Shown: piece after piece, positions 16,338 to 38,679 of the stretch
Position numbering within the stretch: the stretch's first letter is position 1
Layout of the letters: each line of letters opens with the position of its first letter
Assembly (NCBI RefSeq): GCF_022489035.1
Contig: NZ_JAKVTV010000003.1
Span: forward strand, 186,001 to 250,000
Length of the DNA: 64,000 nt
Origin: Christiangramia lutea
GTDB taxonomy: Bacteria; Bacteroidota; Bacteroidia; Flavobacteriales; Flavobacteriaceae
Direction of reading: 5' to 3'
Position numbers and translations under genes: made by a program
Notes under the pieces: model-generated
What the model was told of the DNA's origin: nothing
The model's input: the letters and a program-made list of their open reading frames with translations, nothing else
Databases searched by the model: none

Positions 16338-16766
16338 ATGGGATTAGATAAAATTCTTGCTATTTCGGGAAAACCAGGTTTATTCGAGCTTACGGCTCAA
16401 ACCAGGGGTGGCTTTGTTGCAAAATCTTTACTTGATGGAAAGAAGATCGCTGTGAATATGCGTCATAATGTGAGTATTTTGAGTGAGATCGCAATTTATA
16501 CATATACCGAGGAGATTCCTCTTGGAGAAGTTTTTCAAAAGATCAAGGAAAAAGAGAATGGCGAGGAAACTATTAGTCACAAATCTTCAAAGAAAGAACT
16601 TGAGAACTATTTTTCTGAAGTACTACCAGATTATGACGAAGACAGGGTGTATGCCAGCGATATGAAAAAGATCTTCCAGTGGTACAACATTTTGATCAAG
16701 AATGGCTTTTCAGATTTTTCTAAAGAAGATGAAAAAGTTGAAGAAGGAAGTAGCGAAGAGGAATAG
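16338..16766 (+). CDS. DUF5606 domain-containing protein
   Basis: A 142-residue conserved Bacteroidota protein. The ATG at 16338 (MGLDKILAISGKPGLFEL) is chosen because it gives the family's start; an upstream TTG in frame adds 11 unlikely residues. The N-terminal half is a small beta-rich domain (GLFELTAQTRGGFVAKSL), followed by a helical part and a very acidic tail (EDEKVEEGSSEEE). No function is known. It is last in the ruvX-def run and is followed by a clear terminator. Confidence 0.88.
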   Translation: MGLDKILAISGKPGLFELTAQTRGGFVAKSLLDGKKIAVNMRHNVSILSEIAIYTYTEEIPLGEVFQKIKEKENGEETISHKSSKKELENYFSEVLPDYDEDRVYASDMKKIFQWYNILIKNGFSDFSKEDEKVEEGSSEEE

Positions 16767-16792
16767 ATTCTAATTCGTTCCATTATAGATGA

Positions 16793-16824
16793 AAGCTGAA
16801 ATTTTAAAATTTCAGCTTTTTTTG
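16793..16824 (+). terminator. Rho-independent terminator of the ruvX-def operon
   Basis: A perfect 14-bp-per-arm inverted repeat (AAAGCTGAAATTTT and its complement, 16793-16820) runs into a T-tract. It resembles the family A palindromes (CTGAA/TTCAG) just downstream but has a different centre. Confidence 0.85.
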
Positions 16825-16870
16825 TTTTTTTATAATACCTCTGAATTAGATTTAGAATTCTTAAAATAAG

Positions 16871-17013
16871 ATGCTGAAATCAGTTCAGCATGATGATGGT
16901 TTCTTTTACTTCCCATCACCCTGGACTTGTTTCAGGGTCTAAAGTAATCTCGACCAACATTAGAGATCTCTAATTTTGTAGATTTCTCAGTTATTGCACT
17001 TCTTCGAAATGAC
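16871..17013. repeat. Composite palindromic repeat: inverted pair of family A plus one family B copy
   Basis: Two 21-base palindromes, 16871-16891 (ATGCTGAA, loop ATCAG, TTCAGCAT) and 16918-16938 (ACCCTGGA, loop CTTGT, TTCAGGGT), sit in opposite orientation 26 bases apart, both flanked by GATG on the loop-proximal reading. A family B hairpin (GATTTC / GAAATGAC) follows at 16981-17013. The region lies between convergent genes. The stems match the copies at 26117-26183 through compensatory changes. Confidence 0.65.
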
Positions 17014-17026
17014 ATAAGATTTGAAA

Positions 17027-19492
17027 TTAAAACTTCAGCCCGAAAATAAAGGCACCATCTCTTCTTCCTCCAAAATCTGAAACAACGTAATCCAGTCTTA
17101 GGAACCTGTATTTTCCGAAGCCGAGGTTATCTATCCCCACAGAATATTCTGAATAAGGATTCCTGTCTGCCGTGGTTAAGCGATGTGCTCCCAGGATCAG
17201 GTTAAAATTAAGCTTATTAATAAGCGGTAATTTCCCCAGAGCCCAGCCCTGGAAATCGTGCTCAGCATGAAATTCAGCATAATTCTTATTGGTGCTGAAT
17301 TCATAATAGGGCATTAGATTGAACTTGCCTACATAACTCCCAAAACCTATCCTGGTCTGGTTTCCGTCAAAATGCCGGTAATCTACAAGGCTAATATCAT
17401 CGGCGTTGGAAAATATTCCTCCGTTGATGAGGTATTTTAGTTCTCCTTTATTTCCAAATTTAAGGGTCTGACTAACTTCCGCTTTAAACTGATCGTAATT
17501 GTATTTCCGTTCGCTACCGCCAAAACCTTTTTCCCAACCTAGCTTCAAATTTGGATATTTTGGATCTTCAATATTATATTTTCCATTTGGATAGGTCATA
17601 TATTTCTGGCCAAAGGAAATATCAGCGATAAAATTCAATTTAAACAATGAATGTTCCTCGAAGGGCTTACTCCCCAAATTATCAGGTTCAAGTGGGTTAT
17701 TGGAAGTGTAGTTTCTTTCATCCCAATTAATGAAAACATGATCTGTATTATTCACTAGAGCCTGCCGGTTCTCCCAGCTTATTTCATTGAATAGACGGAC
17801 TCCATTAGTTATCTCCTGGGCATAAGCGGCTCCTATAAAACTTTTCTCATACAGCTTTAAATAGTTTCTTTCAAAGAAGATCGTTGTTGCATTGTTCAAT
17901 AATCGGGAAATAGGCTCTCTATGGTTGATTTGTTCCGTAGAAACACCGCCCTCAATTCTTAGATAAGGTTTTGAGTAATTATTGAATTTTTTTTCAAATC
18001 TCCCGTTGATTCTGAACCTATCTTCGCTGAGGCCATAGCTGAGATTGGAAGAGATCTTCCAGTAATTCTCCTGGTCTTCACCCTGTCTCTGAGTATAACC
18101 AATGTCAATATTCGTATTCCAGCCCTGTACCGTATTAAAGGCAACACCAGTGATAGGAGCACCAATACTGAAATATTTGTTCTCCCAGGAATTTGCATAA
18201 CTATATCCAAAAAATATATCGGTAAAACTGAACTTATTATTCACTGCATCAACAGAATCCTTGTACTTTTTACTGTCTCTAATTACCTGGATGCTATCCT
18301 TTTTTACATAATCTTCGATTTCTTCTGTAGTTAGAGGTACCGGTCTTTTTTCTTCCCAGTATACCGAATCTTTTTTATTGGCAAGTTCCTGAAAACTCAG
18401 GATCTCCCTGCCGAAACTTTCATCGTCAAAATCTGGCTTGAAATTATAATCGCTGTAAACGGCAGTAAATCTCCCGTCGCCTCCAAAACCAAAGATCTTA
18501 AAGCTGAAATCCACGCTCTGCGATATTTGAATATAAAGACCATTCTCTTTAGAATACTTATAATTCTGCCTGAAGACAAGTTCTTCAATTGGTGGTACCT
18601 GGATAGCCTGTCCGGTAGCGGTTAATTCAACTCCGTAAATCTGCCACAGGTCTTCAACAATATAAATAAAACCGGTAAAAATTCGGTCGTTCTTCCTTTT
18701 AGGTATCACCCTGATTTTATTGATCAGATTTCCTCGGTCGTCGAAGAAAGTTCCCTCGAGCTTATACCGATAGTAATTGAAGCCATATTCGGCAATTGGA
18801 GAAACCATTTCGCTGTTTATTTCCAGCGTGTTTTCATAAAATGAAAAATATGCCTCCTGGGCAGAATTCAGGCTGAAACCATTATCATCACCACTTACTT
18901 TTGAAGCGATGATCTTTTCATTGAAATCGTCAGGTTTTTGAAAGGCGATTTTCGAAATGGTTTCGCTGAGGTAAACAATTCCGCTTCTGGTGGAATCCAG
19001 ACCTCCTCCAAGGTCACCAACGTCCTGACCTAAAATTTTCTCTGGAGCGTTCTTAATACGCCATAAACCTCTGGAATAAAAATCGGCGGTGAAAGATTCC
19101 AGTTTCGCTGAATTAATCTTTCTTTGATCAATCGCATTTCTAATGATCCTGATTGCCGGGTCTTCTCCGCTTTGTACGGTTACTTCGTCCAGGCTGGTAC
19201 TTTCAGCATTTAACATCACATCGATCTTGATCGGGAAGCTGTTTGCTTCCACATTCCTTTTAATGGTTTTATACCCCAGGAATTGATAAACCAGACTGTA
19301 GTTTCCGGGATTATCGATTTTAAGCTCGTAAACACCATCTTCATTAGTGGTAGTGCCTTTTGAACCAGATTCCGTATAAATATTTACATAGGGTAGTGGC
19401 TGGCCATTTTCGTCCTTAACCGTCCCGGTAATTTGTGCATACATCTGGGGAATTGTAAACATGAACAATAACCCCAATAGCTTTTTCAGCAT
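17027..19492 (-). CDS. DUF5686 and carboxypeptidase-regulatory-like outer membrane protein
   Basis: An 821-residue exported protein. A signal peptide ends at MYAQ, so the mature protein starts with Gln. Residues 20-110 form a CarboxypepD_reg-like beta-sandwich (ITGTVKDENGQPLPYVNIY, GYKTIKRNV), followed by a periplasmic DUF5686 region and a C-terminal beta-barrel of alternating aromatic strands, ending in GAFIFGLKF with the terminal Phe typical of OMPs. Family members are common in Bacteroidota outer membranes. Unlike TonB receptors it has no plug domain. Function is unknown; a role as a surface assembly or channel protein is a guess. It is monocistronic. Confidence 0.88.
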   Translation of the reverse strand: MLKKLLGLLFMFTIPQMYAQITGTVKDENGQPLPYVNIYTESGSKGTTTNEDGVYELKIDNPGNYSLVYQFLGYKTIKRNVEANSFPIKIDVMLNAESTSLDEVTVQSGEDPAIRIIRNAIDQRKINSAKLESFTADFYSRGLWRIKNAPEKILGQDVGDLGGGLDSTRSGIVYLSETISKIAFQKPDDFNEKIIASKVSGDDNGFSLNSAQEAYFSFYENTLEINSEMVSPIAEYGFNYYRYKLEGTFFDDRGNLINKIRVIPKRKNDRIFTGFIYIVEDLWQIYGVELTATGQAIQVPPIEELVFRQNYKYSKENGLYIQISQSVDFSFKIFGFGGDGRFTAVYSDYNFKPDFDDESFGREILSFQELANKKDSVYWEEKRPVPLTTEEIEDYVKKDSIQVIRDSKKYKDSVDAVNNKFSFTDIFFGYSYANSWENKYFSIGAPITGVAFNTVQGWNTNIDIGYTQRQGEDQENYWKISSNLSYGLSEDRFRINGRFEKKFNNYSKPYLRIEGGVSTEQINHREPISRLLNNATTIFFERNYLKLYEKSFIGAAYAQEITNGVRLFNEISWENRQALVNNTDHVFINWDERNYTSNNPLEPDNLGSKPFEEHSLFKLNFIADISFGQKYMTYPNGKYNIEDPKYPNLKLGWEKGFGGSERKYNYDQFKAEVSQTLKFGNKGELKYLINGGIFSNADDISLVDYRHFDGNQTRIGFGSYVGKFNLMPYYEFSTNKNYAEFHAEHDFQGWALGKLPLINKLNFNLILGAHRLTTADRNPYSEYSVGIDNLGFGKYRFLRLDYVVSDFGGRRDGAFIFGLKF

Positions 19493-19535
19493 TTGAAAGA
19501 TTTTCGGTTGAAAGAAGAACGAAGAAATTCAGAAA

Positions 19536-19991
19536 TTATTTGTATTCTTTCTGAATTCGGTCTAAACGACGTTTATTTTCCCTGTCTTTGATCGTTTCTC
19601 TCTTGTCATATAATTTTTTACCCTTGGCGAGGGCGATCTGCAATTTTGCCAAACCACGGTCATTGATAAATAATCGAAGAGGAATGATCGTTAATCCAGA
19701 ATTGGTCACTTCTTTTTCAAGTTTTCTTAATTCCCTTCGTTGTAATAACAATTTCCTTTCACTTTTTGGATTATGATTAAAATGCGTGGCATGGGAATAT
19801 TCCTCAACATGCATATTTATCACAAAAAGTTCATGATTATTGAATTCACAAAAACTTTCAGCAATATTGGCCTTGCCCTCTCTAATGGCTTTTATCTCGG
19901 TTCCGGCAAGTTTTATACCTGCGGTATACTTATCCAGAAACTCATAATTGAACTTAGCCTTTCGGTTTTTAATGTTGATAGAATTCTTCAT
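19536..19991 (-). CDS. smpB: SsrA-binding protein SmpB
   Basis: A 151-residue tmRNA-binding protein needed for trans-translation. Marks are INIKNRKAKFNYEFLDKYTAGI, the GTEIKAIREGKANIAESF core, SHATHFNHNPKSERKLLL, GLTIIPLRLFINDRGLAKL and the basic C-terminal tail KGKKLYDKRETIKDRENKR. The ATG at 19991 (MKNSINIKN) is preferred over an in-frame codon six residues upstream because a -7 element lies between them. tmRNA itself is not in the window. Confidence 0.95.
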   Translation of the reverse strand: MKNSINIKNRKAKFNYEFLDKYTAGIKLAGTEIKAIREGKANIAESFCEFNNHELFVINMHVEEYSHATHFNHNPKSERKLLLQRRELRKLEKEVTNSGLTIIPLRLFINDRGLAKLQIALAKGKKLYDKRETIKDRENKRRLDRIQKEYK

Positions 19992-19998
19992 ATTGCAA

Positions 19999-20006
19999 CA
20001 AAAATA
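19999..20006 (-). promoter_or_regulatory. -7 promoter element of smpB
   Basis: On the minus strand TATTTTTG matches TAnnTTTG, seven bases before the smpB ATG at 19991. This supports the shorter start and predicts a leader of only a few bases. Confidence 0.5.
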
Positions 20007-20077
20007 CAAGCTTTAAGCTAAATTCATGCTAAAGCCAATTTAAATTTCCCGGCGACTGCTTCCTGAACAAAAATTTT

Positions 20078-20085
20078 TATTTTTG
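20078..20085 (+). promoter_or_regulatory. -7 promoter element of the DUF6503 lipoprotein gene
   Basis: TATTTTTG, 20 bases before the ATG at 20106, in a divergent gap with the smpB promoter. Confidence 0.5.
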
Positions 20086-20105
20086 CAGCTTTCAAATTAC
20101 CCGTT

Positions 20106-20867
20106 ATGAAATACATTCATTTGCTGCTTTTATTAGGTCTTCTTACTTCTTGCGCTAACAATAATGAGGAACTTTCGGTAAGCCAGATCGTAGATAAAGC
20201 CATCAAGAATGCCGGAGGTGAAAGGTATGAAAATGCCGAAATTGATTTTGTTTTTAGGAATATCAAGTATAAAAGTATCAGGAACGGTGGAGAGTACCAG
20301 CTTGAAAGGAAACTGCAAGATTCACTGGGTAATGAGGTTCATGATATTCTGAATAACGAAGGTTTTAAGCGCCTGATGAATGATAGTTTGGTTAAGGTGT
20401 CAGATTCAATGAAAGTGGTGTATGGTAATTCAGTGAATTCAGTCCATTATTTCGCTCAGTTGCCGTTTGGATTGAATGATTCTGCAGTGAACAAGCAACT
20501 TATTGGAAAAGACAGTATAGCCGGTAGGGAATATTATGAAGTTAAGGTGACTTTTTCTGAAAATGGAGGAGGAACCGATCATGAAGATGAATACATGTAC
20601 TGGATCGATACGCAGAATTTCGAGGTGGATTATCTCGCCTATAATTTTGAAGAAAACGACGGTGGAGTTAGATTCAGAAAGGCTTTTAATCACCGTATCA
20701 TTGAAGGGATAAGATTTGTAGATTACGAAAATTACAAATATGAAGACATCTATATTCCATTAAAATCCCTGGATAGTCTTTATGAAAAGCGGGAGTTGGA
20801 CTTGTTGTCTTTGATAGAAACAAAAAGTGTAAATGTAGAATTGACCCCGAAGAAAGACAGGTCTTAA
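20106..20867 (+). CDS. DUF6503 family lipoprotein
   Basis: A 253-residue SPII lipoprotein: LLLLLGLLTSCANNNE gives a lipobox with Cys at about residue 16. The mature part is a beta-rich fold of long strands like LolA/LppX-type or lipid-binding lipoproteins (DFVFRNIKYKSIRNGGEYQLER, GREYYEVKVTFSE, DEYMYWIDTQNFEVDYLAY). Such proteins are restricted to Bacteroidota and have no proven role. The 3' end overlaps the convergent phosphatase gene by four bases. Confidence 0.8.
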   Translation: MKYIHLLLLLGLLTSCANNNEELSVSQIVDKAIKNAGGERYENAEIDFVFRNIKYKSIRNGGEYQLERKLQDSLGNEVHDILNNEGFKRLMNDSLVKVSDSMKVVYGNSVNSVHYFAQLPFGLNDSAVNKQLIGKDSIAGREYYEVKVTFSENGGGTDHEDEYMYWIDTQNFEVDYLAYNFEENDGGVRFRKAFNHRIIEGIRFVDYENYKYEDIYIPLKSLDSLYEKRELDLLSLIETKSVNVELTPKKDRS

Positions 20868-21388
20868 TTGATATAAAGAACCTGGCTTTGGGTAGATCCG
20901 TCGGCGAAAACCTGAACTATAAAAAGCGCTCCGTTTTCTGAATCATCGATATCTTCATACTTCTTTTCTGCCAGGATCGCATTGGCGAACTGGGGAGTCG
21001 TATTGCTATGACCGACTACTAGAACGGTTTTTCCAGCGGTAGTTTTTTCGAAGTTTTCGTCAAAAAGATTGTTCGCATCATATTTAATGATCTCCAGTTT
21101 ATTTGCGTCTGCAGTAGGTTTTGCGGTTTGCATGGTTCGATTGTAGTCCGTACTGTAAACGGCATCAAAATCGATATTCTTTAAAACTTCTGCCCAATTC
21201 TGCGCCCTTTCCATCCCTTTTTTAGTTAGGTCTGGATTTCTGTTGGATCTATCACTACGATCCTTTTCCGCGTGGCGAATCAAGTAATAAGTCGATACCA
21301 GTTCTTGCTGGATTTCCATGTTTAATTCTTCCGAAGGATTGTTGACTCCTAAAATTAAGGAAAAGAAGATAGTGATGATGCCTGCCAT
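20864..21388 (-). CDS. Histidine phosphatase family protein (exported)
   Basis: A 174-residue phosphoglycerate mutase-like phosphatase. The phospho-acceptor is in YYLIRHAEKDRSD (RHAE type, as in SixA-like and other small members). The second catalytic His is in VLVVGHSNTTPQF, and DAVYSTDYNRTMQTA gives the supporting Arg. About 25 hydrophobic residues at the N-terminus (GIITIFFSLILGV) suggest export or a membrane anchor. The substrate is unknown. It lies between two lipoprotein genes and is convergent with the DUF6503 gene. Confidence 0.85.
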   Translation of the reverse strand: MAGIITIFFSLILGVNNPSEELNMEIQQELVSTYYLIRHAEKDRSDRSNRNPDLTKKGMERAQNWAEVLKNIDFDAVYSTDYNRTMQTAKPTADANKLEIIKYDANNLFDENFEKTTAGKTVLVVGHSNTTPQFANAILAEKKYEDIDDSENGALFIVQVFADGSTQSQVLYIN

Positions 21389-21444
21389 GATTTGTTATTT
21401 AGATTTCGAAAGGTTTGACGTTCAGGAAACAGGTTTGTTACAAT

Positions 21445-22545
21445 TTATAAATTCTTAAAATCAATTTCCATGAGTATGAATTGATTGATCTGTTTGGCGA
21501 AGCTGTTAAAGTTATTATCTGAAACCAGCAACAGGGAATTTTTACCATTTTCCAGTTTAGGCCCCAGGCACATTCCCTCGATATTATCGATGATGCGATC
21601 GGATAACTGATCCCTCACAGATTTAAAGTTATAGATTAGTTTTTTTTCAGCAACTTCATATTCTTCGCCTTTTAATCTATCTATTCCCAAAGTATTGCTA
21701 GCCTGATTTGAATCTACCTGGAAGATCTTTACCGTATTTCCGCGGGATCCGTATCCGGCTGAATAAGACCTTTCCAGAACCAGGAATTTATTTTCGGCAT
21801 ATTCCAGTATCTCGGTAACTCCATTTACAGCAAAGTAATTGATGGGAAGTTTAGCGATCCCATCCAGCTGGTATGAAAACTGACTTACGGCCTCACCACT
21901 TTTTTTATCGAATTTTGTGATCCTTATATGAGACCTGGATGGAAATATTTTAGGTTTAGAGGCATCTTTTTCAAGGGGTAATTCAGTAGCAACCCAATAT
22001 CCTGTTTCATCATAACTTTCGGAAATTCCTTCAAAAACCCCGTTGTTTCTTGGCTGCTGTTCGTTTCCAGCTTTAAAATATACTGGAATGGAGTAGGATT
22101 CTTCGATATGCCCGAGGTTGGAAAGCTTGAAAATGCCCGGATCTTTACCGTCATCGATTTTACCTTCACTAACTACAAAGAACTCTTCCTTGTCTTCGTC
22201 AAAACTTAAGGCTTCCAGGTCTAAAAATTCATCAGAGTGTAATTTGTTCTTTTTAACAGTGATTAATTGCTTTACCTGAATTTTCTCAATCTTATCCCTC
22301 TTGATTTCGATCGAGGCACGGTAAATTCTGGGATTTGCTGCATCGTCACATATTAGGAAATATTTGCCATTTTTATAATCTATACCCGATAAGCCACCAA
22401 CCACGGTGTTGTCTAATTCTGTATTCGGAGGCAGCACATATTCATCCAAGAACTTCAGTGAAATATCCTCATTTTCAATTTTACGAGTTACTGCGCAGCT
22501 ACTAAAGAGAAAAGCTAAACAACACAGAATAAATAAATTTCTCAT
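21445..22545 (-). CDS. Esterase-like activity of phytase family lipoprotein
   Basis: A 366-residue protein with lipobox LFSSCAVTRK (Cys near residue 17). The body is a beta-propeller-like domain (PF13449): VVGGLSGIDYKNGKYFLICDDA, LDLEALSFDEDKEEFFVVSEG, PRNNGVFEGISES, and the C-terminal DNIEGMCLGPKLENGKNSLLLVSDNNF with acidic calcium-binding character. The name comes from weak similarity to phytases; activity of this member is unproven. It is on the same strand as the histidine phosphatase gene 56 bases downstream, and both may act on exported phosphate compounds. Confidence 0.82.
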   Translation of the reverse strand: MRNLFILCCLAFLFSSCAVTRKIENEDISLKFLDEYVLPPNTELDNTVVGGLSGIDYKNGKYFLICDDAANPRIYRASIEIKRDKIEKIQVKQLITVKKNKLHSDEFLDLEALSFDEDKEEFFVVSEGKIDDGKDPGIFKLSNLGHIEESYSIPVYFKAGNEQQPRNNGVFEGISESYDETGYWVATELPLEKDASKPKIFPSRSHIRITKFDKKSGEAVSQFSYQLDGIAKLPINYFAVNGVTEILEYAENKFLVLERSYSAGYGSRGNTVKIFQVDSNQASNTLGIDRLKGEEYEVAEKKLIYNFKSVRDQLSDRIIDNIEGMCLGPKLENGKNSLLLVSDNNFNSFAKQINQFILMEIDFKNL

Positions 22546-22663
22546 GTGAATTTTTTTGGATTCAAAAATAACAAATGTTTAAGACAAAAATGGGAGTTTT
22601 TTGGGAGGTCTAACCGTGGTATAAAGGTACTTTTAATGAATTAACAACTTAAATCAAAATGTT

Positions 22664-22849
22664 ATGAATGAAGATCAGATTGAAGGAAAATGGAAACAGA
22701 TTCGCGGAGAGTTCAAGCAGAAATATGGAAAACTCACCGATGATGATGTAACCTATTCTGAAGGGAAGTTTGATGAGATGCTAGGTCGCATGCAAGAGAA
22801 GACTGGTAAGTCTAAAGAAGAATTGAAGAAAGAAATCGATCGCTGGTAG
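22664..22849 (+). CDS. CsbD family stress-response protein
   Basis: A 61-residue hydrophilic protein. MNEDQIEGKWKQIRGEFKQKYGKLTDDD and the ending KTGKSKEELKKEID follow the CsbD/YjbJ pattern closely. Members are abundant under general stress in many bacteria but have no known molecular role. It is monocistronic and ends at a strong bidirectional terminator shared with clpB, so two stress genes converge here. Confidence 0.93.
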   Translation: MNEDQIEGKWKQIRGEFKQKYGKLTDDDVTYSEGKFDEMLGRMQEKTGKSKEELKKEIDRW

Positions 22850-22868
22850 CATTCGATCTAAATCAATA

Positions 22869-22900
22869 AAAGGCGGTAGATTAATCTACCGCCTTTTTTA
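22869..22900. terminator. Bidirectional terminator between csbD-like gene and clpB
   Basis: AAAGGCGGTAGA pairs with TCTACCGCCTTT (12 bp, 4-base loop), with T-tracts on both strands. Confidence 0.9.
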
Positions 22901-22915
22901 TTTCAATTATTTATT

Positions 22916-25522
22916 TTAATCGTTTTGAGCAAGTTGCTCCTGGTTTCTAAAAACAAGCTCTTCATTGAACTCATCCAGTAAAATAATACTATCTGTATGA
23001 ATTTTACCGGCAAGGATCTCTTTAGATAGTTTGTTTAGAACTTCTCTCTGCACAACCCTTTTTACCGGCCTGGCTCCAAATTGTGGGTCAAATCCTTTTG
23101 CTGCCAGGTAATCTATGGCTTCTTCAGTAGCATCCAGCACAATATTTTGTTTAGAAAGCATTTTCTTAACGCCTTTCAATTGCAGACCTACGATCTCTTT
23201 GATATCCTTTTGAGTAAGCGGACTGAACATTACGATATCATCTATCCTGTTAATGAATTCAGGTCTCACGCTCTGTTTTAATAAACCAAGAACTTCCGAT
23301 TTGGCGGCTTCCATAGCCGAATCAAGATCTTTGATATTTTCAAATTTTTCCTGGATAATATGGCTTCCCATATTCGAGGTCATGATAATGATCGTATTCT
23401 TGAAATCTGCCAGTCGGCCTTTATTATCTGTAAGTCTACCTTCGTCCAGAACCTGAAGAAGTATATTAAAAGTATCAGGATGTGCTTTTTCGATCTCATC
23501 AAGAAGCACTACAGAGTAAGGTTTTCTTCTTACAGCTTCGGTTAACTGGCCTCCTTCATCATATCCAACATATCCCGGAGGTGCACCTACCAGTCTGCTT
23601 ACCGAATGTCTTTCCTGATATTCACTCATATCGATTCTGGTCATTGCAGATTCATCATCGAATAGATATTCCGCAAGAGCTTTTGCTAATTCCGTCTTAC
23701 CAACCCCGGTGGTACCAAGGAACAGGAATGAACCAATTGGTCTTTTCTGGTCCTGTAATCCTGCGCGACTTCTTCGAACAGCATCACTAACCGCTATTAT
23801 CGCTTCATCCTGGCCAACAACACGTTTGTGTAATTCCTCTTCAAGTTTCAGCAATTTTTCACGATCACTCTGCAACATTTTGGTCACAGGAATTCCGGTC
23901 CATTTAGCAACAACTTCGGCTATATCTTCATTAGTTACTTCTTCCTGGATCAATGATTTCTCATTTTGATTTTCAGCTACCTTTTCCTGTAAGTTTTCAA
24001 GTCTTTCCTGAGCTTCCTTGATCTTACCATACCTTATCTCGGCAACCTTTCCATAATCACCTTCGCGCTCTGCTTTTTCAGCTTCAAGTTTGTATTCTTC
24101 AATTTCAGATTTTGCGGTCTGGATGTTATCTACGATCTCTTTTTCGCTCATCCAGCGGGCATGAAGATCGTTGCGTTCTTCTTTCAGGTTCGCCAGATCA
24201 GCTCGAAGGGCTTTTAATTTTGCCTCGTCTTTTTCCCTTTTAATTGCCTCAATTTCGATCTCTAGCTGCATGATCTTACGGTCCAGAACATCAAGTTCTT
24301 CCGGTTTGGAGTTAATCTCCATTCTTAATTTTGAAGCAGCCTCATCCATCAGGTCTATTGCCTTATCTGGAAGAAACCTGTTGGTAATGTATCTTTGAGA
24401 TAATTCAACAGCAGCGATGATAGCTTCATCCTTGATCCTTACCTTATGGTGAGTTTCATACTTTTCCTTGATTCCACGAAGAATGGAAATGGCACTTTCA
24501 GTATCTGGCTCCTCAACCGTAACTTTCTGAAAACGACGTTCCAGAGCCTTATCTTTTTCAAAGTATTTCTGATACTCATCCAGAGTAGTTGCTCCAATTG
24601 CTCTCAACTCTCCACGAGCTAAGGCGGGTTTAAGGATGTTCGCCGCGTCCATTGCTCCCTGGCCACCACCGGCTCCAACCAGCGTGTGAATCTCATCGAT
24701 AAATAGAACAATATTTCCGTCACTGGAAGTTACCTCCTTGATAACCGATTTTAATCTTTCCTCGAACTCACCTTTATATTTTGCACCGGCGATCAAGGCA
24801 CCCATATCCAGAGAATAAATTCTTTTATCCTTAAGGTTTTCGGGTACGTCCCCATCTACTATTCTATGAGCAAGACCTTCTGCGATCGCTGTTTTACCCG
24901 TTCCCGGTTCACCAACCAGCATTGGGTTGTTCTTTGTTCTACGAGATAAGATCTGAAGTATTCTTCTTATCTCTTCGTCCCGACCAATCACCGGATCCAG
25001 TTTGCCTTCCTCCGCAAGCTGATTTAGATTACGGGCATATTTATCGAGCGAATTATAAGTGTCTTCTGCACTCTGTGAAGTTACCCGGTCTCCCTGACGT
25101 AATTCATCAATCGCTGCTTTCAATCCTTTCTCAGTGGCTCCCTGATCTTTCAAGATCTGGGCAACTTTGCTGGAAGATTTAAAAATTGCCAGAATTAGAT
25201 GTTCAATTGAAACATATTCATCATCCATTTTCTTGGCGATGGAAGAAGCTTCATTTACAGTTTTACTGGCCTCCCTGGATAGCATGATATCTCCTCCGCT
25301 GACTTTCGGAAAGCTTTCCAAACTTTTATCGAGAATCTGTGTAAACAGATTTACGTTGATATTCAGCTTTTTCAACAGGAATGGAGTTACATTTTCGTCT
25401 ACCATGGTAATGGCTTTGAAAATATGTTCGTTCTCTATCTGCTGATGGCCCATTTCCTGAGCAAGCTGCTGGGCTTGCTGGATAGCCTCTTGTGATTTTA
25501 TGGTAAAATTATTAAAGTTCAT
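22916..25522 (-). CDS. clpB: ATP-dependent chaperone ClpB
   Basis: An 868-residue Hsp100 disaggregase that works with DnaK to recover aggregated proteins. It has the double N-terminal Clp domain (1-145), AAA1 with Walker [10 protein letters not shown] and [15 protein letters not shown], a long coiled-coil middle domain (about 400-520; many [17 protein letters not shown]-like repeats), and AAA2 with [16 protein letters not shown] and [13 protein letters not shown]. The start at 25522 ([14 protein letters not shown]) is the family start; the frame is open 14 codons further up. The 180-base gap to ytxJ is AT-rich and should hold the heat-shock-type promoter, which I cannot define. Confidence 0.97.
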
Positions 25523-25702
25523 CTGTATTGTTTTTTGAAATTCATATGGCAATACATATACCATTCAAAATAAATGTCAAAATGACGTGTATTATTAAAA
25601 AATAAACGACAAAACGACAGTTTGGTTGAATAGTATTAAAAATTCGTGGATATTTTTGGCCTATTAAATTTACTTAGTTTTATTTTCGCGGAAAAGAATG
25701 TT

Positions 25703-26101
25703 ATGGGATTATTTGATAAAATTTTCAATTCTGAAAAGAAGGAAACTTCTGAAAATAAAAGTAGTACGCCTTGGATAGATTTAAATTCGATGGAACAAAT
25801 AGATGAAATCGAAAAAGCTTCGGAAGAGAAGACCGTGGCGATCTTAAAACATTCCACTCGTTGTGGGATTAGCAGGATGGTGTTAAGAATGTTCGAATCA
25901 GATTATGATCTGGATGAAAGCACACCCATAAAATTATATTTTCTTGATCTAATTAGTCACAGAGATATTTCTAATGAGATCGCAGAGCGTTTTAAGGTAA
26001 GACATGAAAGTCCGCAGCTAATTGTTCTTAAGAACAGGGAAGTGGTTCATCACTCTTCTCACCAGGGAATTTCTGCAGATAAATTGAAAGAATTAGTATA
26101 G
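25703..26101 (+). CDS. ytxJ: Bacillithiol system redox-active protein YtxJ
   Basis: A 132-residue thioredoxin-fold protein (BrxC/YtxJ, PF11009). The active-site segment is ILKHSTRCGISRMVL with a single Cys in TRCGIS, as in the bacilliredoxin-like members. The C-terminal RHESPQLIVLKNREVVHHSSHQGI holds the cis-Pro. It is thought to remove bacillithiol from protein thiols. The ATG at 25703 (MGLFDKIF) is the family start. The bacillithiol synthesis gene bshC lies in the same window (58.4 kb), which supports use of bacillithiol by this organism. Confidence 0.9.
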   Translation: MGLFDKIFNSEKKETSENKSSTPWIDLNSMEQIDEIEKASEEKTVAILKHSTRCGISRMVLRMFESDYDLDESTPIKLYFLDLISHRDISNEIAERFKVRHESPQLIVLKNREVVHHSSHQGISADKLKELV

Positions 26102-26116
26102 AATTGAAACAGAAAT

Positions 26117-26183
26117 ATCCTGAAACAAGTTCAGGATGACAAGAAAGCAATTGAAATACGTCAAGCTGAACTTGTTTCAGCTT
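26117..26183. repeat. Inverted pair of 21-base palindromes, family A
   Basis: 26117-26137 reads ATCCTGAA, loop ACAAG, TTCAGGAT; 26163-26183 reads AAGCTGAA, loop CTTGT, TTCAGCTT. The 13-base cores are exact reverse complements of each other, each unit is followed on its own strand by GAC, and the spacing (25 bases) is nearly that of the pair at 16871-16938. The outer three stem positions differ but stay paired. It lies just before the shared terminator of ytxJ and fahA. Confidence 0.7.
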
Positions 26184-26190
26184 CTAAATA

Positions 26191-26221
26191 AAAAAGCCCC
26201 GCAAAATGCGAGGCTTTTTTT
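26191..26221. terminator. Bidirectional terminator between ytxJ and fahA
   Basis: AAAAAGCC(CC)GC pairs with GCG(A)GGCTTTTTT around an AAAAT loop, with A/T tracts on both sides. Confidence 0.85.
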
Positions 26222-26236
26222 ATAGTTCCTGTGAAC

Positions 26237-27526
26237 TTATTTTTTCTTCGGTTGGTATACCGGAAGTAATTTTGATCTCACTTCACCAAACCCAATTCGA
26301 GAATTTCCATTCTGGCAGAATCCTTTCATGATAACGGTGTCATTATCTTCAATAAATTTTCTTTCTGAACCGTCATTCAATTTAATAGGCTTGCTACCAC
26401 TCCAGGTAAGTTCCAGCATAGACCCGAAAGAATCTTCAGAAGAACCTGAAATAGTTCCCGAAGCCATCATATCTCCTGAATTAACAGGGCAACCATTAAC
26501 GGTATGGTGAGCCAGTTGCTGACTCATGTTCCAGTAAAGATATTTAAAATTCGATTTTGAGAGTGACTGTTCTTCGCCTCCTTCAGGCTGTAGGAATACT
26601 TCCAGATTAATATCGAAGCTTTTTTCGCCCGAATACTTCAAATAGGGAAGTAATTCTTTTTCAGGTTTTGGGCTGGCAGTTCTAAATGGTTCCAGTGCAT
26701 CCATGGTGACGATCCAAGGAGAAATTGAAGATGCGAAGTTCTTAGCAAGGAATGGCCCTAATGGTACATATTCCCATTTCTGGATATCTCTCGCACTCCA
26801 GTCATTGAAAAGAACCATTCCGAAGATGTAATCTTCGGCTTCGTCAACCGGTATAGGCTCTCCAAGATGATTCGCATCTGTAGTGATAAAAGCCATTTCC
26901 AATTCGAAATCTACTCTTTGAGATGGCCCAAAAACGGGAGCATCAGAATCTGCTGGTTTAGTTTGTCCCTGAGGGCGGTGAACCGGAATTCCCGAAGGAA
27001 TTATTGAAGAACTTCTTCCGTGGTATCCAACCGGGATATGCAACCAGTTAGGCAGTAATGCGTTATCTGGATCACGGAACATGGTTCCAATGTTGGTAGC
27101 ATGTTCTTTAGAAGAATAGAAATCGGTGTAATCTCCAACCTGAACCGGCATTTGCATTTCGATCTCGTCTAGAGTGAAAAGTACTGTGTTTCTATGTTTC
27201 TGATTATCCTTTAATTTTGAATTATTGGCATCGAAAATATCTGCAATACGATTTCTAACCAGTCTCCAGGTCTTCTTTCCGTCTGAGATAAAATCGTTTA
27301 AAGTATCCTGTAAAAATATATCGTCAGTTAGTGGGATCCCTTCAAAATAGCCTAATTGGTGCAATGCTCCAAGGTCGATCGCGTAATCCCCAATTCTGGT
27401 ACCAATAGTGATCACATCATCACGAGTAAGGAATACTCCAAATGGAATATTTTGTATAGGGAAATCGGTGTCGCCGGGGATATCCAACCAGGTTTTTCTA
27501 TTTGGATCGTTAGCGGTAATTGACAT
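26237..27526 (-). CDS. fahA: Fumarylacetoacetase
   Basis: A 429-residue full-length FAH that cleaves fumarylacetoacetate to fumarate and acetoacetate, the last step of tyrosine breakdown. It has the small N-terminal SH3-like domain (FPIQNIPFGVFL, then RIGDYAIDL) and the catalytic beta-roll: DFYSSKEHATNIGTMFR (the general-base His), HIPVGYHGRSSSI, DFELEMAFITT (metal ligands), FNDWSARDIQKWEY and SGSSEDSFGSML. The ATG at 27526 (MSITANDP) is chosen over an upstream non-ATG codon. No other tyrosine genes are adjacent. A separate short FAH-like gene lies at 43.7 kb. Confidence 0.95.
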   Translation of the reverse strand: MSITANDPNRKTWLDIPGDTDFPIQNIPFGVFLTRDDVITIGTRIGDYAIDLGALHQLGYFEGIPLTDDIFLQDTLNDFISDGKKTWRLVRNRIADIFDANNSKLKDNQKHRNTVLFTLDEIEMQMPVQVGDYTDFYSSKEHATNIGTMFRDPDNALLPNWLHIPVGYHGRSSSIIPSGIPVHRPQGQTKPADSDAPVFGPSQRVDFELEMAFITTDANHLGEPIPVDEAEDYIFGMVLFNDWSARDIQKWEYVPLGPFLAKNFASSISPWIVTMDALEPFRTASPKPEKELLPYLKYSGEKSFDINLEVFLQPEGGEEQSLSKSNFKYLYWNMSQQLAHHTVNGCPVNSGDMMASGTISGSSEDSFGSMLELTWSGSKPIKLNDGSERKFIEDNDTVIMKGFCQNGNSRIGFGEVRSKLLPVYQPKKK

Positions 27527-27636
27527 AAAAAGTGTTGGTTTTTTGTTAAAATCTAGTTGATTCAAATATATTATTTTCCTGTAATTAACCGAATGTATTT
27601 GTTACTTTTACCGAATATTTAACGTAAAAGATTGTA

Positions 27637-30946: not shown

Positions 30947-30976
30947 TTGCCAAAATATACAAAGATTGTATATTTG
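30947..30976 (+). promoter_or_regulatory. Promoter of the SRP RNA gene
   Basis: TTG at 30947-30949 and TATATTTG at 30969-30976 are separated by exactly 19 bases, the Bacteroidota optimum for -33/-7 elements. The predicted start falls at the 5' base of the SRP RNA closing stem (about 30981). Confidence 0.8.
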
Positions 30977-30978
30977 CA

Positions 30979-31080
30979 CCGGCAAGTCCCACACAACCAG
31001 CTCCTGCTGAATCCCCCAGGGCGGGAACGCAGCAAGGGTAAGCGGTCGTAGCGGTGTGATGTGGGTCGCTTGCCATTTTT
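30979..31080 (+). ncRNA. ffs: Signal recognition particle 4.5S-type RNA
   Basis: A roughly 100-base RNA with the bacterial small SRP fold. GGCAAG (30981-30986) pairs with CTTGCC (31069-31074); CCCACAC pairs with the late GTGTGATGTGGG arm. The universal domain IV tip is present: CAGGGCGGGAACGCAGCAAGGGTA-like sequence around 31018-31040, with the GGAA tetraloop and the symmetric/asymmetric internal loops that bind Ffh. It ends in TTTTTT. The start of an SDR gene follows 41 bases later on the same strand. Its receptor gene ftsY is at 46.8 kb. Confidence 0.96.
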
Positions 31081-38540: not shown

Positions 38541-38585
38541 AAAATTCAAAAAAAGAACCTGCACTTCCGTAAGGAAATGCAGGTT
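38541..38585 (-). terminator. Orphan terminator-like hairpin in the receptor leader
   Basis: On the minus strand AACCTGCA pairs with TGCAGGTT (38585-38556) with an inner TTCC/GGAA stem, followed by CTTTTTTTG. No minus-strand gene ends here. TAATTTTG on the same strand (38623-38616) could start a short RNA of about 60 bases that ends at this hairpin, or the hairpin could attenuate receptor expression. Confidence 0.5.
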
Positions 38586-38679
38586 AACAAGATCATCTTT
38601 ATTAACACTAACCATCAAAATTAATAGGATGATCTCGCAAGGTCCGGAACCTTATTTTAAAGACTGTGTATAAGATAGA

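Follow-up and report, generated by a model that had tools for sequence, protein, structure and literature searches.

CGTC-tagged hairpins of Christiangramia lutea and a hairpin-bracketed GIY-YIG nuclease as the candidate enzyme of the family

The repetitive extragenic palindromes (REPs) of the CGTC superfamily have been described as hairpins with 8- to 9-bp stems and 4- to 5-nt loops, arranged in inverted dimers (Di Nocera et al. 2013, PMC3733652). As far as the accessible text of that paper goes, a dedicated transposase for these REPs seems to be lacking, Gramella forsetii is among the species that carry CGTC repeats without having them beside their tyrosine transposase genes, and the Neisseria repeat dRS3 is equated with CGTC-1. 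Gramella forsetii is the former name of Christiangramia forsetii, and the stretch analyzed here (the window), 64,000 nt from Christiangramia lutea (NCBI RefSeq assembly GCF_022489035.1, contig NZ_JAKVTV010000003.1, positions 186,001 to 250,000 of the forward strand), contains two inverted pairs of hairpins, all four of which are ordinary copies of this known tiny-hairpin family. The window repeats themselves are not new, the superfamily being already published with C. forsetii as a named carrier.

The part worth following is an association with a nuclease outside the window. The genome holds at least 140 copies of the repeat, most of them in inverted pairs close to the 3' ends of genes, and the same hairpins bracket a GIY-YIG nuclease gene of about 94 codons. 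We regard it as the probable explanation of the whole that CGTC REPs are the cognate sites of REP-flanked GIY-YIG nucleases, the window hairpins being old copies of the family.

Ssn of Neisseria is said to be a site-specific single-strand GIY-YIG nuclease, which cuts a single-stranded genomic repeat (NTS) and modulates transformation. The REP-flanked nucleases are probably akin to Ssn, in that both combine a single-domain GIY-YIG enzyme with a repeated target; moreover, some relatives of the nuclease studied here are bracketed by CGTC-1-like hairpins, the type to which dRS3 was assigned (PMC3733652). A literature search by title and start of abstract, of incomplete coverage, gave among the matches listed no work joining REPs with GIY-YIG nucleases. 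Part of what we propose may reportedly be stated already in work on Ssn from 2025.

The repeat family across the genome

The consensus of the four window copies and 16 further ones is an element of 29 nt, made of the tag CGTC, the 5' arm A-N-N-CTGAA, the loop CTTGT, the 3' arm TTCAG-N-N-T and the tail CTN, with an 8-bp stem and a 5-nt loop. Its core pattern occurs at 71 places of the 3.47-Mb genome versus one for the reversed control, and a covariance model returned 142 places at E<=0.1, or 140 once opposite-strand overlaps were removed, a lower bound given that the model scored 150 of the 4934 first-look candidates. The original prediction had proposed a structured element resembling REPs or bacterial interspersed mosaic elements, and both this copy number, well above a handful, and the pairing of the stems bear it out: the stem is fully paired in 110 of the 139 full-length copies, has 7 pairs in 22 and 6 in 5, with 2 unscored. 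That the hairpins might be chance palindromes of an AT-rich genome, a view for which only their short length speaks, is refuted by the reversed-pattern controls and has practically no probability; besides the count given above, the strict REP pattern was found in 24 of 59 genomes (this one and its relatives) and in 67 of 392 Bacteroidota genomes, and its reversed form in none of them.

The full-length copies fall into a few types, the first three stem bases being ACC in 33, ATG in 31, ATC in 30, AAG in 29 and ATT in 7 of the 139, so that the first base is A in 136 and the second T in 71. The tag is CGTC in 87 copies and TGTC in 21, and ends in GTC in 119; the tail is CTN in 124. The main loops are of 5 nt, and six copies (L054, L061, L062, L068, L091) carry a 27-nt, CTTGTTTAACTTCGTTGAATCTTCGAT-like loop in place of CTTGT.

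These types are combined by rule. Copies are neighbors within 60 nt in 59 cases, all but one of them inverted; of these 58 pairs, 44 have the tags outside, which the published convention calls head-to-head (HH), and 14 have them inside. In 52 of the 58 pairs, the two partners have different bases at both variable stem positions, as compared with a shuffled mean of 23.7 and no value as high in 10,000 shuffles, and the commonest combinations are ACC with ATG (19) and ATC with AAG (18). Identical 5' arms occur in 2 pairs versus 9.2 in shuffles, 31 of 10,000 of which were as low, and in other genomes, 62 pairs comprise 56 with a difference at one or both variable positions and 6 with a difference at neither. 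At one place (G000:C23:25598-26044, L081), a unit of about 123 bp that contains an ATG/ACC inverted pair is present four times in tandem. The stem changes reported as compensatory represent genuine covariation, all 152 stem cells being paired in 19 distinct rows and 17 cells being changed on both sides versus a shuffled mean of 6.2, even though the number of stem pairs with two-sided change, 2, equals that in the shuffles. However, free drift under a pairing constraint does not describe them, since the types are few, discrete and paired by rule.

The comparison with the published superfamily (PMC3733652, as far as its accessible text describes it) shows the same unpaired tag, CGTC or TGTC, CCTC being a further published form, an 8-bp stem opening with A-T and a 5-nt loop, as in CGTC-2-like REPs, together with heterodimers, a predominance of inverted pairs with tags outside (44 versus 14) and an intergenic position at gene 3' ends. 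Different from the published repeats, whose tails are mostly, though not all, CCA and whose second stem position is T, the tail here is CTN and the second position is T in only about half of the copies, according to the counts above.

A hairpin-bracketed GIY-YIG nuclease gene

An exact 26-mer of the family, GTCATSCTGAACTTGTTTCAGSATCT, occurs in at least 117 stretches of the collection, where by our own estimate it would be expected by chance well under once. Clustering of the open reading frames (ORFs) of 80 listed 26-mer loci led to the nuclease, as a family of three small ORFs, of which two are enclosed by copies and the third is next to a single copy; the same clustering yielded other clusters, some of them larger. 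The small-ORF family carries a GIY-YIG domain (Pfam PF01541) as its single domain, over about 94 residues, and in a nine-row alignment (A3) the residues Y7, Y18-I19-G20, R28 and E65 are invariant, the catalytic ones presumably among them. A single GIY-YIG domain with conserved motif residues corresponds to the Ssn type. The nearest solved sequences to the alignment, the UPF0213 GIY-YIG proteins 1zg2 and 1ywl (E 2.4e-4 and 3.3e-4), are distant, and searches of NCBIfam and PADLOC gave no informative name.

In eight of the nine A3 rows, an ACC hairpin begins 33 to 41 nt before the start codon and an ATG hairpin lies just past the stop, with the tags outside; the ninth gene, of the congener G010, has the reversed order, with ATG upstream and ACC downstream, at a greater distance. 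The tail of the downstream hairpin overlaps the stop codon in 6 of the 9 genes. Strict CGTC hairpins within 160 nt on both sides were found for all 11 genes of the subfamily (the A3 rows and two disrupted copies), as opposed to 2 of the other 78 small GIY-YIG genes and none of the 26 large ones or the 11 Y1_Tnp genes, the GIY-YIG comparison covering 89 small and 26 large genes among 180 matches. The covariance model gave 88 matches in 18 of 71 small-GIY-YIG loci, which partly overlap, so that the same place may be counted more than once, and none in the 26 large-GIY-YIG loci. The subfamily had first been spotted partly through its flanks and was therefore rechecked by clustering on sequence alone at >=60% identity, among proteins of at least 60 residues, which returned one cluster of 11, all of them bracketed.

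The genome of the strain itself (G000) has an intact nuclease gene at G000:C1:588128-588406 and a frameshifted neighbor at about 585494-585774, and 25 of its 140 REP copies lie within 20 kb of these two genes. The arrangement resembles the REPtron, where the gene of a REP-associated tyrosine transposase (RAYT) lies between GTAG REPs (PMC3733652, in the part accessible), as both have a small nuclease gene between inverted REPs and short pairs elsewhere. Different from the REPtron, the enzyme here is a GIY-YIG nuclease and not a tyrosine HUH enzyme, the tag is CGTC-like and not GTAG, and none of the 11 Y1_Tnp genes is flanked by the same repeat; different from the CGTC superfamily as so far described, for which the accessible text gives no dedicated enzyme, a gene lies inside the pair.

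Distribution, hairpin class and mobility

Among the best Bacteroidota relatives of the nuclease, taken from 30 loci (two on short contigs were left out, and in one the gene was not located), 16 of 27 testable genes are bracketed, 8 have a hairpin on one side and 3 have none. In one such locus (L393, G372), a long array of alternating REP hairpins surrounds an A3-like nuclease gene. Over the 392 Bacteroidota genomes, with at least three REPs and a nuclease match at E<=1e-30 as thresholds, 31 genomes have both, 13 only the REPs, 23 only the nuclease and 325 neither (odds ratio 34, p 3e-21, kinship ignored); counted by genus, the four classes hold 18, 5, 18 and 138 (odds ratio 28).

Furthermore, the association extends beyond the phylum. 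The titles of the 80 listed 26-mer loci include Bacteroidota, Treponema, Endomicrobium, Alphaproteobacteria, Gastranaerophilales, Ignavibacteria and several lineages of the candidate phyla radiation (CPR). The exact 26-mer is also present in 27 IMG/VR viral contig stretches (L459-L485), which may be viral or host DNA. The nuclease is encoded, at E<=1e-10, in 21 of 30 genomes that carry the 26-mer and have non-Bacteroidota titles. When 30 of 52 nuclease matches outside the phylum were read, hairpins were present on both sides in 13, on one side in 5 and, in strict form, on neither in 12. The 13 bracketed loci bear the titles Wolfebacteria (2), Daviesbacteria (2), Levyibacteriota, Paceibacter, Moraniibacteriota, Treponema, Gastranaerophilales, Endomicrobium, a Heliobacteriaceae metagenome-assembled genome (MAG), an Alphaproteobacterium and an Ignavibacteria MAG; the tags are outside on both hairpins in some of them, not in all. 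In loci of at least 3100 bases, hairpins reach a density of 3.70 per kb close to the gene, as compared with 0.16 per kb at greater distance and 0.023 per kb when the bases of the flanks are shuffled.

Some of the outside nucleases are bracketed by hairpins with a 4-nt loop, such as ATTCCCGC-GCAG-GCGGGAAT, which by loop length are of the CGTC-1 type. The class of the bracketing hairpin follows the phylogeny of the nuclease: on a tree of 61 nucleases, each flanked by one hairpin or more, built from 94 columns and with many unresolved forks, the 4-nt-loop class needs 3 changes versus 7.8 when shuffled, with 0 of 500 shuffles as low. Six of the eight members of this class fall into one group together with one 5-nt-loop member, and this group draws on several phyla and includes a congener. 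Such tracking is the trace expected if each hairpin class is recognized by its own nuclease and transferred jointly with it.

It is possible to hypothesize that the nuclease would recognize the hairpin in single-stranded DNA, on the lagging strand or in incoming DNA, and would cleave at the unpaired CGTC tag or close to it. The master unit would be the nuclease gene with its two hairpins, and the short inverted pairs devoid of a gene would be derivatives, spreading now or formerly through nuclease-dependent breakage and repair. In its widest form, for which we see about equal grounds to believe and to doubt, the proposal is that CGTC REPs and single-domain GIY-YIG nucleases make up one two-part element in many phyla, including small CPR genomes, whose nuclease would recognize its own class of hairpin in single-stranded form and drive the spread of that class.

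Several observations weigh against the nuclease explanation. Both the cutting by the enzyme and the movement of the repeat are steps that we infer. The tests of association ignore phylogeny; five genomes with at least three REPs (four of them with at least five) have no A3-like nuclease at E<=1e-15, one of the five being a 2.3-Mb Bacteroidota genome (G379) with 125 strict REP matches, and nine genomes with a nuclease at E<=1e-33 have no strict REP. Within the genus, presence of the nuclease does no better than that of Y1_Tnp, each being present in 8 of the 17 REP-carrying genomes and in none of the 7 REP-poor ones. Outside the phylum, the 30 genomes, drawn from the 80 listed loci, form a set without a REP-free control; many 26-mer records are MAGs, and single odd titles (e.g., Nanoarchaeota) may be misbinned; and the 12 of 30 loci with no strict hairpin belong to the same side of the balance.

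The same holds for the evidence on mobility. Nine of the 10 genus units examined share the same two neighboring syntenic sites, that of G010 being unmatched, which suggests that the nuclease unit rarely moves. In addition, a comparison of 400 kb of G005 with 400 kb of G014, at 87% identity, showed no clean empty site, and mobility therefore stays inferred. This pair was chosen for its long alignable block (90.3% over 3.7 kb); G012 and G016 are a little more similar, but their alignable block is shorter (91.0% over 2.2 kb), and the pairs at 94 to 95% are nearly repeat-free. At one aligned position (G005 offset 385177, L423 to L438 block end, L438; G014 offset 392417, L458), the types read ATC/AAG in G005 and AAG/ATC in G014, as if the pair had been inverted. 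One copy common to both species, at G005 offset 105410 (L424) and G014 offset about 108040 (L444), differs in its loop, which is CTAGT in one of them and of a longer, TCCCGATACTTCGGGA type in the other; all these offsets refer to the joined stretches of the two genomes.

The shared syntenic sites favor a different account, in which nuclease and hairpins form a resident and mostly immobile system, for example, for single-strand processing in natural transformation, with the repeats being kept targets rather than parasites. Ssn, which reportedly cuts single-stranded repeats and modulates transformation, would be a precedent. We consider this account possible but rather unlikely, since near-identical hairpins occur with related nucleases in distant phyla, which suggests joint transfer, and the occupancy of both window sites varies among congeners.

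Window copies, gene ends and the tyrosine transposase

The palindromes that the original prediction placed at 16871-16891, 16918-16938, 26117-26137 and 26163-26183 are present in the sequence, although each element is longer than the 21 bases assigned to it, having in addition a 5' tag (CGTC, TGTC or CATC) and a 3' tail. At site 1, the copies span 16867..16895 on the minus strand (type ATG, tag CATC, loop CTGAT, 41 bits with the covariance model, R1), for which an 8-bp hairpin is the predicted fold, and 16914..16942 on the plus strand (type ACC, tag CATC, loop CTTGT, 42.8 bits), which has one G-T pair and the weakest predicted fold among the four. At site 2, they span 26113..26141 on the minus strand (type ATC, tag TGTC, loop CTTGT, 46 bits) and 26159..26187 on the plus strand (type AAG, tag CGTC, loop CTTGT, 48.7 bits), both also recovered as folds. 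The inner stem CTGAA/TTCAG, described as constant, is shared by three copies, but the one at 16918-16938 has CTGGA/TTCAG; the loop common to three copies reads CTTGT on the tag strand. The partners are separated by 26 bases at site 1 and 25 at site 2, as had been noted, and both pairs have the tags inside, that is, they are tail-to-tail (TT) dimers in the published convention, where the tag is the tail, and represent the rarer form.

Over the whole window, the 15-nt core has 9 near-matches versus a shuffled mean of 3.06 and a maximum of 8 in 100 shuffles, and the next-best place of the covariance model after the four copies scores 15.3 bits (E 0.0075); it lies at 38552-38589 on the minus strand and is perhaps a decayed copy or a chance match. 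The window copies, whose tags are partly decayed, two being CATC, and which most congeners lack, are best read as old passengers.

Both sites lie between convergent genes, as first described. The ORFs 16338..16766 (+) and 17027..19492 (-) end on either side of site 1, and 25703..26101 (+) and 26237..27565 (-) on either side of site 2. Genome-wide, 3 of 72 REP sites fall within an ORF, and the others have co-directional ORFs on their two sides in 47 cases, convergent ones in 19 and divergent ones in 3, while the adjacent ORFs of the window itself give 33 co-directional, 11 convergent and 12 divergent pairs; the median distance of REP sites from a predicted gene 3' end is 33.5 nt, the ORFs being predicted by length (>150 aa), with no annotation used.

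This avoidance of divergent gaps and closeness to gene ends would suit hairpins kept as RNA elements, for termination or for protection of mRNA 3' ends, with the nuclease association being secondary, and the minus-strand copies at both loci do score as terminator-like by consensus. However, each site has a terminator-like hairpin of its own, separate from the repeats: at site 1 a hairpin with a T run at 16791..16820 (+), given by a terminator scan, and at site 2 a hairpin between A and T runs at 26190..26222 (no strand assigned), seen by eye in the sequence and not among the sites of that scan. Judged by eye, the former persists in most of 21 orthologous sites and the latter in all 24, whereas a script found REP copies in only 8 of 21 genomes (plus one marginal) at site 1 and 5 of 24 at site 2, this genome included in both counts. 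The repeats are not kept with the gene ends that they would serve, and a terminator role was rejected as the main explanation at the window sites. Moreover, an RNA function leaves unexplained the inverted-pair rule, the rule of two differences and the bracketing of the nuclease, so that we hold it improbable. In 8 of the 21 genomes, the gap at site 1 is 64 to 106 bp long and empty, and others carry different repeats.

An Rfam scan found no family at either hairpin locus, its sole match in the window being a small signal recognition particle RNA (RF04183, 102 bits) at 30973-31079 (+). Adjoining site 1, at 16980-17013 on the minus strand, there is another repeat (GTCATTTCGAAGAAGTGCAATAACTGAGAAATCT as read on that strand), which likewise starts with GTCA and is present many times in congeners.

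The original prediction had also pointed to a RAYT, which would move these hairpins as REP- or BIME-like units. The genome does have one Y1_Tnp gene, and Y1_Tnp is weakly associated with REPs over the 392 Bacteroidota genomes (odds ratio 3.3, p 0.006) and within the genus (8 of 17 REP-carrying versus 0 of 7 REP-poor genomes, p 0.054). Nevertheless, that gene is flanked by different palindromes (CCTCACAGGTTTTGGAAACCTGTGAGG; CCTCACAGG-type), no model match or strict hairpin was found at 11 Y1_Tnp loci of the genus, and the REP-rich congeners G003, G013, G005, G001 and G022 have no Y1_Tnp match; the same absence of flanking at Y1 genes is given for CGTC repeats in the accessible text of Di Nocera et al. 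(PMC3733652). The RAYT claim fails, and such an enzyme is very unlikely as the mobilizer. The palindromes enclosing the Y1_Tnp gene, two of CCTCACAGG...CCTGTGAGG form at about 1277-1304 and 1892-1918 of L001, belong to another repeat family.

According to its accessible text, the 2013 description left open what moves or maintains CGTC REPs, with no transposase gene flanked by them (PMC3733652). A nuclease gene inside the REP pair, with a hairpin class that tracks its phylogeny across phyla, is a concrete candidate for that enzyme. If the proposal is true, the two-part element would provide CGTC REPs with the dedicated enzyme reported as missing, and if the nucleases cut their own hairpin specifically, the REP type of a genome would predict the target of its enzyme.

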